The position numbers were made by a program, and so were the translations under genes. The notes beneath the pieces are model-generated. The model searched no databases and was not told the origin of the DNA. It saw only the letters and a list, made by a program, of their open reading frames with translations. DNA of 38,669 nt from a virus: the IMG/VR virus record IMGVR_UViG_3300030090_006472, positions 1 to 38,669 of that record; one strand, written 5' to 3'. This document shows, in pieces, positions 1,080-10,016 of this stretch; position 1 is the stretch's first letter, and the number at the start of each line of letters is the position of its first letter.

Positions 1080-3941
1080 TTAATAACCAGAACTATAACC
1101 ACCTCCACCCATTGAACCTCCACTCATGGGTGGTTGTGTTGTGGATGGAGTATATGAAGGTGCTGTTGTTGTTCTAGGTCTTGGTGTGGTTGTTTGTGGG
1201 GTTGTTACCGTTCTAGGTCTTGGTGTGGTAGTGTTCATACTTCTTTCACTACGCTTCTGGTCTTCCAGACTAGGTGGATTTTCATTCGCACAATCAGAAC
1301 ATTGACTTGCACATCCAGGTATACTGCACATTGCAGATTTTACTTTATCCCAGTAGGTTTTTGCCCTATTACATGCATCTGTTCCTTCTGATGGGTCTGC
1401 ACCAGAACCCTGATAACAACAGTTTGGTTTTTCACAACACTGGTGTCCACATCTACCTTCCTTGTGCATCTTTGCCAAGTCTTCGCATGTGTAACAATCT
1501 TCATCATCCACCACTGGACCAGGTCCACTTCCTTCACATCTGCATGGACCACTACCTTGGTTTCTACTCCACTTTCTTTTCCAACAAGCCATTATCAGTT
1601 CGCTGAGTTCTTTCTTTTGTTGACAACATGCACTATCTCCCTCTGCACATCTGTTACACAAGATATCATGTGCATTTGCAGGAATATTACAACATGCTTG
1701 TACTCTTGGTGAACCTTTCTGGTAAATACCAGGAGTTGGACACAATCCTCTTGCATCCTTAGCAAAGTCAGGGAAAATTTGATATTGTCCACAACCAACT
1801 GCCGCACCACCAGGTCCAGGAGGACATTTAGGCCGGGGGTGTGCAGGGTCAGGATCCCCATTAGGTAAGTACTGAGGGTCATTTTTACAAGCATTGCATT
1901 GGTAATCATCGTCAGTGCATGGGGAGACCCCACCACAACTCTCTACTGCCATGATTGCTTGCATCAAACAATTGTCGCAATCACAACACTCGTTGATACC
2001 AGTTACTCCTCCACCACCACCAGGTCCTACTCCCGGTTCTACATCGGGATAAATTACTGGTCCCTCATCACTTCCTCGTTTCAACATTACATTTGCAACA
2101 TTACCCATTCCATTGTGGTTCTTACAGTAGTAATATATTTCTCTACCAGATGCAGGAACTTCAAAGTAAATGTAAGCACCTCTGTTACCAGGCTTCTTAT
2201 TTGTGCGGGTGATGTATCTCGATAATTCACTACCAGAGATGTTACCATCTGCACTGGCTGCAAAGGATAGAGGGTGTGTTCCTTGAAGTCCAAGTGAACG
2301 GTCTGTTAGACTGAATCTATAAACAACACCCTCTTCCAGCATTAACTCTGGTCTTGATTCTGTATTTTGTCCTGCACCATTGAATGCATATACTCTTTTT
2401 CCGTTTCGATATACAACACGAACACGAATTGTTTTTCTTCCTGTTTCATTCCACTTCTCTTCTGCGAGTATTCTTGCTTGAGTTTGTGTAGCATTTCTCG
2501 GAACTGTTACATTGTAAGAAGGAGAAGCATTCCTTGTTTGTGTGGTATTTGTTGTTGGTGTTGGTGTTGGTGTTGTTTGTGTGCTTCTATCTTGTTCTTC
2601 GTAAAAATGCCAGGTCCCACAGCAACTAGATTGGGATCCGACTTCACATCTTTGATCAGAATACCATGTACCCTCATTTGCATTACATTGCCATTCTGGC
2701 ATCGTTACACAATTTGCGTACGGCCAATCTGATCCTGGCGGACCGCACGAGCCGGATAGACAACAAGCACCTTCGGGTGGAGTCAAGTCTGGTCCATCGG
2801 GATCGTTTTCAGGTTCACATCCTGCATCTTCGCATGATACATTGTTTCCTTGATAAATTCCAAGCATTGAAGATGCACATTCTGAAGGCGAAGTTTCAGC
2901 ACACCATTCGTTATTAGGTCCCATACCATCGGGATAACAACAAGCACCAGTATAATCAGATGGTACACATTGTATTTCTTCACATGTCTTACCGTTATGC
3001 CATCTAGAAGTACCTTCTTCCCCAGCCGATGAGTTGCATGTTCGGCGACTCACATCATCTATACAATAATCAGCATCACCTTTTCCGTCTTCATTAACAC
3101 AACATGCACCATAACCAGGCGCGGGTGTTACTAAAACTGCGGGGTCTCGTTGACTTCGTTGATTACTTTTTTCTCTCCTAGAAACAGTTATGTAAATCTT
3201 TGAACCGAAATATGTGGTTCCATCTGCATCATTTGGTACAGGTTCATCGACAGATATAAATTCATGCCCTTCATCACTGATTCTTGTACCAGTCACAGTG
3301 AATGTGGATGTTTCCTTTTTATCGGGGAATTGAATTGTCAGTATATCTCCGACAAGAACTTCCCCTAATGTATTGGAAAATGAATTGGAAGAATTAATAC
3401 CTGCTCTATTTACAATAGAATTCTCCTCAATAACTCTTGTCATTGTAGTAGAACTCTCCGTCCATCTTAGATTATCAATCCAATAGTCAGAGAAATATTG
3501 AGAAATATAATCACTAAGATTGTTGGAAGTCACTTTTGTTGCAACTAAAATGCCACTTTCTTCGTCGAAACTGTTTATCGTGTAAGTTCCTGCGGCATCA
3601 AACACATCACCATTTCCTTGTTGTATTGGATTTGTGTAATTTGCATCTTTAAGTGTTAGTGTTTGTCCTACAACATTTTTGCTATTGAAGAATGATTGTA
3701 TTGATTTCTTAGAATCTTCTGAATGATTGTAAGCCAAACTATAATCTATAACAACATTATTCCCACTAAAAGTCATAGTGGGATTAATTGGACTTATGAA
3801 ATCTTCTTGGTCTACTACTTCTTCATAGTTATCGACAAAATGCAATAGTAAAAACTGCCCGTTTGCACCTGAAACATGGGAGATGGGTACATTCGATACA
3901 CGGTTAGATTTTTTTCGTGCATTATGGCGAGATGGTTGCAT
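1080..3941 (-). CDS. Large virion protein with Cys-rich modules, cupredoxin-like domain and i-type (destabilase) lysozyme domain
   Basis: 953 residues. Residues 1-270 are a non-cysteine virion-type region. About 278-440 hold three Cys-rich modules that begin GACC (278, 332, 391), plus a final SSCC. About 452-480 is a Thr/Pro/Asn linker. About 535-622 look like a type I copper cupredoxin: H556 in THPLSF and C606-x2-H609-x2-M612. About 651-882 match invertebrate-type lysozyme: CLMQ...VES with Glu667 at the catalytic Glu position, CGQYQI (717-722), TCEDLAKMH (818-826) and YWDKV. The catalytic Asp of the family cannot be placed with confidence because of an insertion. Residues 900-953 are a Thr/Pro-rich and Gly-rich tail. 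The gene follows the 3945-5396 gene by three bases. The likely role is a particle-borne cell-envelope- or polymer-degrading protein; the combination is unfamiliar to me. The i-type assignment rests on several aligned motifs, the copper site on ligand spacing only. Confidence 0.85.
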   Translation of the reverse strand: MQPSRHNARKKSNRVSNVPISHVSGANGQFLLLHFVDNYEEVVDQEDFISPINPTMTFSGNNVVIDYSLAYNHSEDSKKSIQSFFNSKNVVGQTLTLKDANYTNPIQQGNGDVFDAAGTYTINSFDEESGILVATKVTSNNLSDYISQYFSDYWIDNLRWTESSTTMTRVIEENSIVNRAGINSSNSFSNTLGEVLVGDILTIQFPDKKETSTFTVTGTRISDEGHEFISVDEPVPNDADGTTYFGSKIYITVSRREKSNQRSQRDPAVLVTPAPGYGACCVNEDGKGDADYCIDDVSRRTCNSSAGEEGTSRWHNGKTCEEIQCVPSDYTGACCYPDGMGPNNEWCAETSPSECASSMLGIYQGNNVSCEDAGCEPENDPDGPDLTPPEGACCLSGSCGPPGSDWPYANCVTMPEWQCNANEGTWYSDQRCEVGSQSSCCGTWHFYEEQDRSTQTTPTPTPTTNTTQTRNASPSYNVTVPRNATQTQARILAEEKWNETGRKTIRVRVVYRNGKRVYAFNGAGQNTESRPELMLEEGVVYRFSLTDRSLGLQGTHPLSFAASADGNISGSELSRYITRTNKKPGNRGAYIYFEVPASGREIYYYCKNHNGMGNVANVMLKRGSDEGPVIYPDVEPGVGPGGGGGVTGINECCDCDNCLMQAIMAVESCGGVSPCTDDDYQCNACKNDPQYLPNGDPDPAHPRPKCPPGPGGAAVGCGQYQIFPDFAKDARGLCPTPGIYQKGSPRVQACCNIPANAHDILCNRCAEGDSACCQQKKELSELIMACWKRKWSRNQGSGPCRCEGSGPGPVVDDEDCYTCEDLAKMHKEGRCGHQCCEKPNCCYQGSGADPSEGTDACNRAKTYWDKVKSAMCSIPGCASQCSDCANENPPSLEDQKRSERSMNTTTPRPRTVTTPQTTTPRPRTTTAPSYTPSTTQPPMSGGSMGGGGYSSGY

Positions 3942-6771: not shown

Positions 6772-7903
6772 ATCCCATCGTTTGTCTCCAAACGGGCATA
6801 CCCGCAGTACCTCTTAAGAAAGAACCACCCTTTCCACCCAAGTCGCCTTTTCTGTCTTTGTTTCCTGCTCCTTGGTCTGGATTCATTCCTTTGTTTCTTT
6901 CCAACATCATTGGAACCATTTGAAGATTGGACCTGCTCGAACTATCTGTTATTTGTTGTTGAAGTTTCAACCCTGCGTTTTGACCTAATGATTCTGTGGC
7001 ACTTGAAACAATATTAGTAGTCTGTTCCATAACTTTTGCATCTGCAAGAATGTTAGGAAGTTTGGATGGTTGTATCACCATCTCTCCTTCTGATTTACCA
7101 CTTGAATCTTTTGAATCACCTATTACTGCCAGTGTAGGAGTCCCCGCGAAACCGCCCTTCGCCAAAGATGGTATTGGTTTTATTTCTTTTCTTTTTATTA
7201 TGTTATCTACTTTATTGTTTAATGAGTGTAGATTTACATTTATAATCTTACTTGTCATTCTTTTATCATATTGATTAGATTTTCTATTTTCATTTACATT
7301 GGTATCTGATTTATTGTGTGTGTTATTGATTGTTGTGTCATATTCGTTGGTTCTATTTGTGCTATTTTCATTTACAGATTTTAATCTATTCGATACACTG
7401 TTTTGATTTAAATTCTTAAAGGTTTTAACTTTGTTCATATTCATGATGTTTGAAATGTTTTTATATTTGTTTACTACTGTGTTATTGTTGACACTGGTAT
7501 TGTTGTTTTCTTTTTGAATCGTATCGGACTTCTCTGCGGGTATTCTTATGATTTGAGGAACACTTATTTGATTTGTGAAGTTGTTCGCTATCAACTTTTC
7601 CTTGATGATAGTTGGTTTGGATACCAATGGTGTGTTGGTAATGTTTTGTATCTTATCCGCCAATTTTTCTAAAGATTCTCTATAGTCCACCGATTGAGTT
7701 TGTTCTGGTTGTGGAAATACTAATTTAGGTATCTTTAATGTGTCTGGATATATGGATGTTCTGTTAGCGAAAGAATAATTATTCAATATCCTTTTTTCCT
7801 TTTCAGTAGGTTTTACATCAGAGGAATCCGCATTTCCACTCTTTCTGGAGTCAAAATACGAGAGGACAGAGTTTCTTATAGACTTTGCTTTTCTTTTTGC
7901 CAT
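6770..7903 (-). CDS. Tape-measure-like tail protein (gp29 position)
   Basis: 377 residues. The N-terminus is basic (MAKRKAKSIRN). The middle (about 130-250) is a low-complexity, Asn/Lys/Ser-rich, probably extended or helical region. Near the C-terminus AKGGFAGTPTLAVIGDS...GEMVIQPSKLP matches the motif found near the end of many tail tape measures (GG...PTLA.VGE..PE.VIP). It starts four bases after the end of the frameshifted chaperone extension, so the order tube, chaperone with frameshift, tape measure copies lambda and P2. It is short for a tape measure (T4 gp29 is 590 residues); it could be a fragment of the system or another tail protein with the same C-terminal motif. The call is an inference from one motif and position. 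Confidence 0.5.
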   Translation of the reverse strand: MAKRKAKSIRNSVLSYFDSRKSGNADSSDVKPTEKEKRILNNYSFANRTSIYPDTLKIPKLVFPQPEQTQSVDYRESLEKLADKIQNITNTPLVSKPTIIKEKLIANNFTNQISVPQIIRIPAEKSDTIQKENNNTSVNNNTVVNKYKNISNIMNMNKVKTFKNLNQNSVSNRLKSVNENSTNRTNEYDTTINNTHNKSDTNVNENRKSNQYDKRMTSKIINVNLHSLNNKVDNIIKRKEIKPIPSLAKGGFAGTPTLAVIGDSKDSSGKSEGEMVIQPSKLPNILADAKVMEQTTNIVSSATESLGQNAGLKLQQQITDSSSRSNLQMVPMMLERNKGMNPDQGAGNKDRKGDLGGKGGSFLRGTAGMPVWRQTMG

Positions 7904-7907
7904 TTAA

Positions 7908-8129
7908 TTACCCATATGGTGTTGCTGATTTTTTGTTCTTCATTTCTAATTGTGCTAACTTTAATCTTTCGTTCTCACTTTCTATATATCCAATCAACTG
8001 TGCCACATAGACATCCCTTTCCCATGGCAACATATTTTCCATATCACTGAGATTATATTTGTGTATGTGAACCAATTGGAAATTTATCAGATAATAATCT
8101 TTAAGACTCAGATGGCTGAGTCCTAACCG
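7908..8129 (-). CDS. gp51/gpT-like chaperone extension read by -1 frameshift from gp26
   Basis: A 73-codon open frame, in the -1 frame of gp26, beginning at the slippery site and ending at TAA 7910-7908, four bases before the next start. Its sequence (DYYLINFQLVHIHKYNLSDM, then LPWERDVYVAQLIGYIESEN) has the 'Y..L.Q.....L..M.PWER..Y...L' pattern of small tail-assembly chaperone proteins. No ATG occurs before the middle of this conserved block (the codon at residue 30 of the 73), so independent initiation would lose half the domain. Frameshifting after Phe237 gives a 310-residue gp26-extension fusion, like lambda gpGT. Not previously listed as a gene because it lacks a start codon. Confidence 0.75.
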   Translation of the reverse strand, partial: RLGLSHLSLKDYYLINFQLVHIHKYNLSDMENMLPWERDVYVAQLIGYIESENERLKLAQLEMKNKKSATPYG

Positions 8130-8135
8130 AAAAAA
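8101..8135 (-). promoter_or_regulatory. Programmed -1 frameshift site: slippery heptamer plus hairpin
   Basis: Reading on the minus strand, the heptamer T TTT TTC (8135-8129) sits in the right register: zero-frame codons TTT-TTC, two codons before the gp26 stop. Two bases later an 11-bp stem starts: 8126-8116 pairs with 8111-8101 (one G-U pair), 4-base loop CCAT. Its GC-rich 7-bp core, GACTCAG/CTGAGTC, begins 6 bases after the slippery site. A -1 slip re-pairs both tRNAs as TTT-TTT and enters the 73-codon downstream frame. Confidence 0.8.
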
Positions 8136-8839
8136 TCCGATAACCCACTTAGAACCACCTCCCTCACCGTACCGTCTGATGTGGTGTATGGCACTTTCTT
8201 TTCTACTCTTGGAGAATCTAGAAAGAAATCTAGAACCTTTTCAAATTGTGTTCTTGTCATAGAATCAACAAACGAAGAAATTTCTTCCAAAGGCATTTGT
8301 GTTGCATCGATAGTTTCTTCTTTTGTCATCACCTTCTCTATACACGAAACCACAAGAGAATATAATGAACTAGGATCGTTGTAATCTATACCCTCACTTT
8401 GATTCATAAGTGTTTTTAGAGTAGGGTATTTTAGTTTTACTTTCACTGTATCCGAAATATCAACGGTGGTGTTTGCCAGTTCACCTTTTATTTCAATTTC
8501 GTCTAGATTTATATCCAATTCTATTTCTTCTTCTGTAAACGGACATATTATTTTTGGATTTACCTTTTCACTTACCGATTTGGACCTAAGTTTTAAAAAT
8601 AAGTATTCCACATCAAACAATGGCATAGAAGAAGCATCATCTATTTCATCAAAGCATACTTCTAATATGTTCTTAATCGCATTCAGGACTTCGGAATTGT
8701 TACCAGTCCCTTGTGCTAGAAGTAATATTTTTTCTTCTTTTACCAAAAAAGGACGAAAATTAGTCTTTTCGTTAGTTGATGGTATTGATGTTGTGTAAGT
8801 CGGAATATTCGCCGTCAAAAGATTTGATAATGTATTCAT
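8123..8839 (-). CDS. 26: Baseplate hub assembly protein gp26 (tail-assembly chaperone)
   Basis: 238 residues in the zero frame (T4 gp26: 208). The block TNFRPFLVKEEKILLLAQG, followed by MPLFDVEYLFLKLRSKSVSE and PFTEEEIELDI, is the signature of the T4 gp26 baseplate family. It is needed for hub assembly; by position between tube protein and tape measure it behaves like the lambda G chaperone. A ribosome site (AAGGAAA) precedes the ATG. The last codons carry the frameshift signal; most ribosomes would stop at 8123 and a fraction would make the longer fusion. It follows the tube-protein gene by 17 bases. Confidence 0.85.
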   Translation of the reverse strand: MNTLSNLLTANIPTYTTSIPSTNEKTNFRPFLVKEEKILLLAQGTGNNSEVLNAIKNILEVCFDEIDDASSMPLFDVEYLFLKLRSKSVSEKVNPKIICPFTEEEIELDINLDEIEIKGELANTTVDISDTVKVKLKYPTLKTLMNQSEGIDYNDPSSLYSLVVSCIEKVMTKEETIDATQMPLEEISSFVDSMTRTQFEKVLDFFLDSPRVEKKVPYTTSDGTVREVVLSGLSDFFG

Positions 8840-8856: not shown

Positions 8857-9537
8857 TTATGAATTGTCGGGATCTGCGAGTCCACTCAGGTCTCCCCCTG
8901 TGTCAATTAAATTGCCTACTGATGAACTCAAGTATCCTGCACCTGCATATTTATAATCCCTATATTCAAATTGAACCTGAAGTCTTGCATAATCATTCAC
9001 CATGTTGAAACCATAATTCACAGGAAAAATGCTAATAGGGTAGCAGTCAGTAAATACATATGCAGCGGTATACTCATCAACGGAAGATCCACTCATGGTG
9101 TATACGATTAGGTTGTTGTTGTAAATATTTCCTCGACCTGCATTACTTCCATTTGCAATATTAACTTCTGAATCTACTAAACTGTCCATCCATGCCTCAA
9201 AGAAACTTCTTTCTCTAGAACCTTCGGACAGAGGGAATGTCATGACTAAACTGCTATCGAAAACTCTACCACAAGGAACATTGTGTGCAGGTCCATGAAA
9301 ATGTTCTTGTATTGCTGCCAAACTTCTTGATGGTAATATAACTGTTTCTGGTTGGTATAAATCTTCAATGTTGGCGGTATACTGTCTCATTTGAGGGTTT
9401 AATTCATCATTTGGGAGGCCCACGCCCGCATCGAATGACAAACCTGTATCCCAGAATGCCACATAATATCGTGAAGGTCTAGAAAGGCCTACTCTTGATA
9501 CTACATTTTGTTTGAAATCGTCAATTCCTGAAGACAT
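8857..9537 (-). CDS. Tail-tube-fold protein, gp54/gp19 type
   Basis: 226 residues. The segment RVFDSSLVMTFPLSEGSRERSF..WMDSLVD, later TDCYPISIFPVNYGF and LQVQFEYRDYKYAG, follows the layout of T4 tube-fold proteins: a beta sheet, an alpha helix near 'FEAWMDSL' and the late 'GC.PI......L.V.F.Y' strands of gp54. gp19 forms the tail tube and gp54 starts it on the baseplate. Size lies between T4 gp19 (163) and gp54 (320). Position before gp26 and the tape-measure-like gene suits either. A late promoter (9560-9567) and ribosome site (AAGGAAA) precede it. Confidence 0.75.
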   Translation of the reverse strand: MSSGIDDFKQNVVSRVGLSRPSRYYVAFWDTGLSFDAGVGLPNDELNPQMRQYTANIEDLYQPETVILPSRSLAAIQEHFHGPAHNVPCGRVFDSSLVMTFPLSEGSRERSFFEAWMDSLVDSEVNIANGSNAGRGNIYNNNLIVYTMSGSSVDEYTAAYVFTDCYPISIFPVNYGFNMVNDYARLQVQFEYRDYKYAGAGYLSSSVGNLIDTGGDLSGLADPDNS

Positions 9538-9581: not shown

Positions 9582-10016
9582 TTATGGCAAAATATCATCT
9601 TCAGTTAAGATAATAAAATCCCATCCTTTATTTACGCACACCTTATTTGCTGATTTCCACTTTGCTTCATTTACCGCAAATGTCATACATTCTCTAATAT
9701 ATGATTTTGTCTTCTTTTTCTTCTTTTCTGGTGCTTTAGTTTGTTTTTTTGGCTTCACTTCTATGACATATGTTTTTACTGAATTGTCTGATGATTTTAT
9801 TTCAGCAATGAAGTCTGGATAGTATCTGTGCATCTTTTTATCAACTGGTGAGTAGTATGGAATGGCAATTTCTTCACTTCCCCATCGAATAACATTTATG
9901 TTTTCGTCCAGATATTTACATACTCTTCTTTCCCATAAAGACCTACATACAATTTTTGTAGGGTCTCCTATATATTTTGATTTATTTTGGGGGTTGTATT
10001 TAGTTTTATATGGCAT
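9582..10016 (-). CDS. 4: Head completion nuclease gp4 (gp50/gp65)
   Basis: 144 residues (T4 gp4: 150). The N-terminus PYKTKYNPQNKSKYIGDPTK and the blocks RSLWER (E29), EEIAIPYYSPVDKKMHRYYPDF (D68) and YVIEVKPKKQTK (E86, K88) form a TnsA/PD-(D/E)xK nuclease core. T4 gp4 completes the filled head before tail joining and is thought to trim the packaged DNA end. A basic stretch (100-103 and before) may bind DNA. The ribosome site AGGGG precedes the ATG. It heads the minus-strand tail operon and is transcribed away from gp48. Confidence 0.92.
   Translation of the reverse strand: MPYKTKYNPQNKSKYIGDPTKIVCRSLWERRVCKYLDENINVIRWGSEEIAIPYYSPVDKKMHRYYPDFIAEIKSSDNSVKTYVIEVKPKKQTKAPEKKKKKTKSYIRECMTFAVNEAKWKSANKVCVNKGWDFIILTEDDILP

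Follow-up and report, generated by a model that had tools for sequence, protein, structure and literature searches.

Tail assembly genes reportedly share a widely conserved −1 frameshift, as described by Xu, Hendrix and Duda in 2004. In phage lambda, the slippery heptamer is G GGA AAG. It lies just before the stop codon of G, downstream of the tail-tube gene, and low-level −1 slippage yields the fusion GT alongside the short form. Lambda gpG and gpGT, which carries the T extension, both attach to the tape measure protein, and recruitment of the tube protein falls to the T part (PMC5009743). Atkins et al. 2016 described G-T frameshifting as conserved in long-tailed phages “except T4” (PMC5009743). 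As cited in two later papers, Vladimirov, Gautam and Davidson 2022 (Virology 566:9-15) identified gp26 and gp51 as the tail assembly chaperones of T4-like phages (PMC10885494, PMC12846349). These two papers, on PRFect and on phage Adele, respectively, credit Vladimirov et al. 2022 with T4-like chaperones that are encoded by two genes, one short and one long, and with polyT slip signals in T4-like short genes. In Pakpunavirus Adele and Vandenendeviridae, the short chaperone gene carries a polyT −1 slip (GTTTTT) at its 3′ end, and the authors likened this shift to that of T4-like phages (PMC12846349). The section of Sullivan et al. 2010 on gp51 reported a “truncated gp51” in cyanophages, with ~ 200 N-terminal residues fewer than T4 gp51, of which it makes up ~ 20%, and offered no explanation there (PMC3037559).

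The window analysed here comprises 38,669 nucleotides (positions 1 to 38,669 of IMG/VR record IMGVR_UViG_3300030090_006472). In this marine T4-like phage, the gp26 locus (Table 1) very probably encodes a tail assembly chaperone (TAC) and yields a fusion through a −1 slip on T TTT TTC, with the help of a hairpin, which makes it the T4-family counterpart of lambda G/GT. We favour this assignment because the slip site is conserved, the hairpin covaries, T4 has an in-frame long gene, and the gp26 model matches an HK97 chaperone fold; on these grounds, the proposal of the sequence-only reading that gp26 and a gp26-gp51-like fusion correspond to G/GT is supported. Like lambda G/GT, the locus combines a short form with a predicted low-level −1 fusion, a slippery site just before the stop and a tail-tube gene upstream, and its fold is likewise related to HK97 chaperone 2ob9; it differs in its Pfam family (PF12322), its heptamer and its marked hairpin. 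T4 gp26 and gp51 share with it the PF12322 family as well as short and long forms with a common C-terminal domain, but they are two duplicated genes without a slip site, whereas here there is one gene with a −1 slip. The resemblance to the Adele and Vandenendeviridae chaperone is one of slip arrangement; those are different phage families.

Table 1. Features of the gp26 locus in the window.
Feature	Position	Strand	Basis or remark
Downstream gene in tape-measure position, 377 aa	6770..7903	−	starts 4 bases past −1 stop
−1 frame extension (gp51 C-terminal domain; TAC-C, putative lambda T counterpart), 73 codons + stop	7908..8129	−	phrog_634
Predicted long product gp26-gp51C, 310 aa; putative equivalent of T4 gp51 and lambda GT	7908..8839	−	collinear at the junction with long genes that are in frame (T4, phiAS4, phage 31, RB43 and others)
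Putative stimulatory hairpin: 11-bp stem 8126-8116/8111-8101, loop CCAT, 7-bp perfect core 8122-8116/8111-8105	8101..8126	−	folding, covariation
0-frame stop TAG	8123..8125	−	one codon past heptamer
Short chaperone gene gp26 (TAC-N, putative lambda G counterpart), 238 aa	8123..8839	−	PF12322 E 3e-55; phrog_150 E 2e-56
Slippery heptamer T TTT TTC	8129..8135	−	in register with gp26 frame
Tail tube-like gene directly upstream	8857..9537	−	phrog_45 tail tube E 1.8e-20

The minus-strand end of gp26 reads ...TCG GAT TTT TTC GGT TAG, with an X XXY YYZ heptamer (8135-8129) in the 0-frame register before the stop, as in −1 programmed ribosomal frameshifting. The earlier reading of the sequence was accurate to the base; its wording needs one minor adjustment, as a single sense codon (GGT) separates the heptamer from TAG. 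The −1 frame (CGG TTA GGA ...) stays open from 8129 up to a stop codon at 7910-7908; the following ATG lies at 7903, in agreement with the earlier description of 73 open codons ending four bases ahead of the next gene. Its earliest possible start is a TTG at 8075, 18 codons in and already within the conserved block, so the window indeed lacks a −1-frame start codon ahead of that block. The 0-frame product scored 187.6 bits against PF12322 (cut-off 24.5), and the −1 product matched positions 58-117 of the phrog_634 profile (E 2.8e-21), which is annotated as “baseplate hub assembly catalyst”; for the −1 extension, 579 phage records had a match.

Relatives were collected from isolates and IMG/VR and dereplicated at 90% nucleotide identity to 151 entries, which represent 150 loci because the window is present twice (WIN and L087). 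T TTT TTN stood in register at the junction in 149/150 loci, so the conservation of the heptamer, which the sequence-only reading had proposed to check, was borne out. The second slip codon was TTC in 116 of the 149 loci, TTT in 25, TTA in 7 and TTG in 1 (window duplicate removed); in the eight TTA/TTG loci Phe is replaced by Leu and the slip is retained. The stop was one codon past the heptamer in 115/150 entries. Away from the junction, T TTT TTN was in register at 24 of the remaining 33,735 codon positions of these genes, and among 154 further Phe-Phe pairs only 9 were written T TTT TTY; the heptamer at the junction is therefore commoner than expected by chance. The loci are phylogenetically linked, so these counts show consistency rather than independent trials. 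The sole relative without the site (L073:1893) has lost the whole C-terminal gp26 segment that normally bears it (KSIETFF...EGLAAF in L077), which looks like a deletion or an assembly error. T runs at the junction were also seen by eye in 33 more loci from contigs of bacterial and archaeal genomes, which presumably reflect contaminating viral DNA or infected cells.

A downstream structure is located a few nucleotides past the site, as in known −1 frameshift signals. The stem begins 2 nt past the heptamer and its perfect core 6 nt past it; the hairpin folds with − 13.4 kcal/mol (z − 4.15), and thus the 11-bp hairpin with the 7-bp core previously described was recovered. The 50 nt downstream of the slip in the window folded with − 14.9, compared to − 5.2 ± 2.2 in synonymous redraws that keep the −1 protein, none of which (0/100) was as stable. 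Across 150 entries, folding relative to dinucleotide shuffles was most negative exactly in the interval that starts at the heptamer end (mean z − 1.49, with 36% of entries below z − 2), and the signal dropped on either side. Mean folding 0-50 nt past the slip was − 7.87 vs − 4.47 in redraws keeping the −1 protein, whereas 48 and 96 nt further it hardly differed from the redraws (− 4.81 vs − 4.23 and − 7.22 vs − 6.35). In a set of 21 sequences that share Gly-Leu at residues 3-4 of the protein, a choice made without regard to structure, the window helix showed 32 double-change cells, compared to 16.0 ± 3.1 in shuffled data and 4-13 in slid registers. Close relatives retain the helix through compensatory changes; L094, for instance, has AGGGCTCAG/CTGAGCCTA where the window has AGGACTCAG/CTGAGTCTT. 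In other lineages the hairpin register varies, and the structure was weak (above − 3 kcal/mol) in 17/150. In a predicted larger fold, TTATCGGAT (8142-8134, immediately upstream of the slip site and overlapping it) could pair with ATCTGATAA downstream of the hairpin and so enclose the slip site, with − 26.1 kcal/mol for 8150-8070.

Sequences resembling a Shine-Dalgarno (SD) element were enriched 13-16 nt upstream of the slip, in 54/149 loci vs 31.3 ± 5.0 by synonymous redraw, and the Glu codon was GAG in 51/85 cases vs 24% in general. The element resembles the frameshift stimulator of dnaX. Inspection of the window slip site revealed no clear copy at the usual spacing, and hence we do not claim the element for this phage.

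Conserved coding in the −1 frame begins at the slip site. Counted past the slip, H6 was conserved in 136/150 loci, L9 in 147/150, N16 in 134/150 and F17 in 147/150. When aligned, the long proteins that T4, phiAS4, phage 31, phiP4-3, RB43, Va1 and three IMG/VR phages encode in frame cross the junction essentially gap-free (FF|RLGL vs VF|KLLV), with a single one-residue gap in Va1. The −1 frame is thus almost certainly translated from the slip site, and a fusion product is predicted; we infer the occurrence of slippage and its efficiency from these sequence features.

Alternatively, as many cyanophage records have it, gp51C might be a small gene in its own right whose start is used through translational coupling, the polyT run being incidental. 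A separate gp51 is indeed annotated in S-SSM7, Mosig, HTVC008M, P-HM2 and others, and an ATG occurs within codons 2-4 past the slip in 37/150 loci. Yet 72/150 loci, about half, contain neither ATG nor GTG nor TTG ahead of codon 18 although the residues in front of it are conserved. The refuting observation named by the sequence-only reading, relatives whose downstream gene starts from its own ATG, is made in part, as some relatives have an ATG a few codons past the slip and gp51 genes in databases were annotated from such starts; it is not general and does not overturn the frameshift. Moreover, the annotated gp51 genes begin at differing positions in the domain, the heptamer is nearly invariant, and T4 gp51 unites both parts in one frame, which makes a separate gene very unlikely. 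The gp51 genes of four cyanophage and pelagiphage records (L002, L003, L178, L192), annotated from internal starts in differing places, are probably mis-started.

Fusion-encoding mRNAs might also arise from slippage of RNA polymerase, and not of the ribosome, on the T run, for which the 7-9 T found in a few relatives (Cr30, HTVC008M, Melnitz; L233-L235) would be suited. Only six T followed by C are present in 116/149, however, the codon register is fixed, the stem a few nucleotides downstream is under selection as expected for ribosomal slippage, and about a third of the loci have the SD-like element upstream. We thus regard polymerase slippage as extremely unlikely. That T4-type phages carry the same domains in a single frame could also mean that the break is a decayed or mis-assembled single gene, but isolates that were cultured and sequenced independently share this break, as do ~ 150 diverse lineages, and in every case it is −1 and coincides with the heptamer. 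In loci with both domains, the −1 relation was found 194 times and the +1 relation never (isolates and IMG/VR), and the same-frame arrangement was confined to two-gene phages. The survey of relatives refuted decay or mis-assembly, which retains practically no probability.

The AlphaFold2 model of gp26 had a pLDDT of 93.4. Foldseek alone gave no significant match to solved structures (best E 0.23), and a sequence search of solved structures with the gp26 profile found no relative. With a second-look aligner, the best solved match of model residues 1-89 was the HK97 tail assembly chaperone 2ob9 (Z 7.7, rmsd 4.5, 88/107 residues aligned), a moderate match (Foldseek E 1.2) limited to the N-terminal 89 residues, but above the unrelated structures and thus indicative of the TAC fold. 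The next matches were the uncharacterised 3fgx (Z 6.6) and 5ir0 (Z 4.9), followed by lower-scoring unrelated structures. By analogy, we infer a tail assembly chaperone role for gp26 and the fusion. Most ribosomes would stop at TAG and release gp26, whereas a minority, aided by the hairpin, would slip back one base on T TTT TTC into the gp51C frame and produce the fusion (TAC-NC). On the lambda model, the abundant short form would cover the tape measure protein and the scarce long form would bring in tail tube subunits, with both gone before the tail is completed. In T4 and its closest relatives, a duplicated gene pair, 26 (short) and 51 (long, in frame), supplies these two proteins.

The PF12322 family includes T4 gp26 as well as T4 gp51, and the latter also carries the phrog_634 domain in frame; T4 gp51 therefore corresponds to the predicted fusion, and T4 gp26 to the short form. 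The two are duplicates. The term “gp26-gp51-like fusion” of the sequence-only reading was thus right as to the fusion, which nevertheless matches the whole of T4 gp51, itself a gp26-family protein with an added C-domain. Twenty of the 29 phage records examined had a single PF12322 gene, and all of these (20/20) had the slip site. The remaining nine (T4, RB43, Aeromonas and Acinetobacter types, Vibrio Va1) had a short gene and an in-frame long gene (gp51), with the slip site at the end of the short gene in 0/9. In the PF12322 domain tree, whose root is not fixed, the T4-type short genes formed one clade (0.988) and the long genes, including that of RB43, another (0.99); together with the RB43 short gene they formed a clade (0.917) apart from the frameshifting genes. 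The Va1 pair were sisters (0.953) and were placed elsewhere, with weak support (0.696), near the frameshifting Rhizobium/Sinorhizobium phages. The tree suggests that duplication may have replaced frameshifting at least twice, independently. We are more hesitant, leaning slightly against, about a wider reading in which a −1 frameshift with composite signals (heptamer, hairpin and, in some lineages, the SD-like element) is general and perhaps ancestral in the T4 superfamily and was replaced at least twice independently by duplication, in the T4/RB43 lineage and in Vibrio Va1.

The sequence-only reading named no earlier description of such a shift for T4-like phages, but the matter is not undescribed, as the papers citing Vladimirov et al. 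2022 already report two-gene T4-like chaperones and polyT slip sites (PMC10885494, PMC12846349). The locus is thus not wholly new, the general idea being in print; our data show that the slip is the rule in T4's marine relatives. The scope of the frameshift in the T4 superfamily and its replacements may not be in print. These data suggest that the exception to tail-gene frameshifting is the lineage of T4 itself and not the T4-like phages in general, and that gp51 is annotated from a wrong start in hundreds of records. As far as the description by Sullivan et al. 2010 goes, the truncated cyanophage gp51 is the same short gp51 as the −1 extension here, and the frameshift, which supplies the missing N-terminal part (gp26), explains its truncated look. 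Comparing phages that have one gene with those that have two provides a natural way to study how the ratio of short to long form is set.

The genes flanking the TAC gene are the tail tube-like gene upstream and the 377-aa gene downstream. For the latter, Pfam, PHROG and NCBIfam profile searches gave no match, no homologues were found in phage records, and tblastn detected weak relatives in L091 and L224 only. The protein is Asn-rich and contains KGGFAGTPTLAVIGDS...EGEMVI close to its C-terminus, a motif which we take to resemble tape-measure C-termini. On the minus strand, the gene at 9582-10016 is a head-closure gene that includes a TnsA-like endonuclease domain (PF08722 E 9.9e-21; phrog_218). 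A 953-aa Cys-rich protein (1080-3941, minus strand), for which there was no Pfam, PHROG or convincing NCBIfam match, has repeated GACC.. units and a Thr/Pro-rich tail. Its stretch YYYCKNHNGMG is, we presume, cupredoxin-like.
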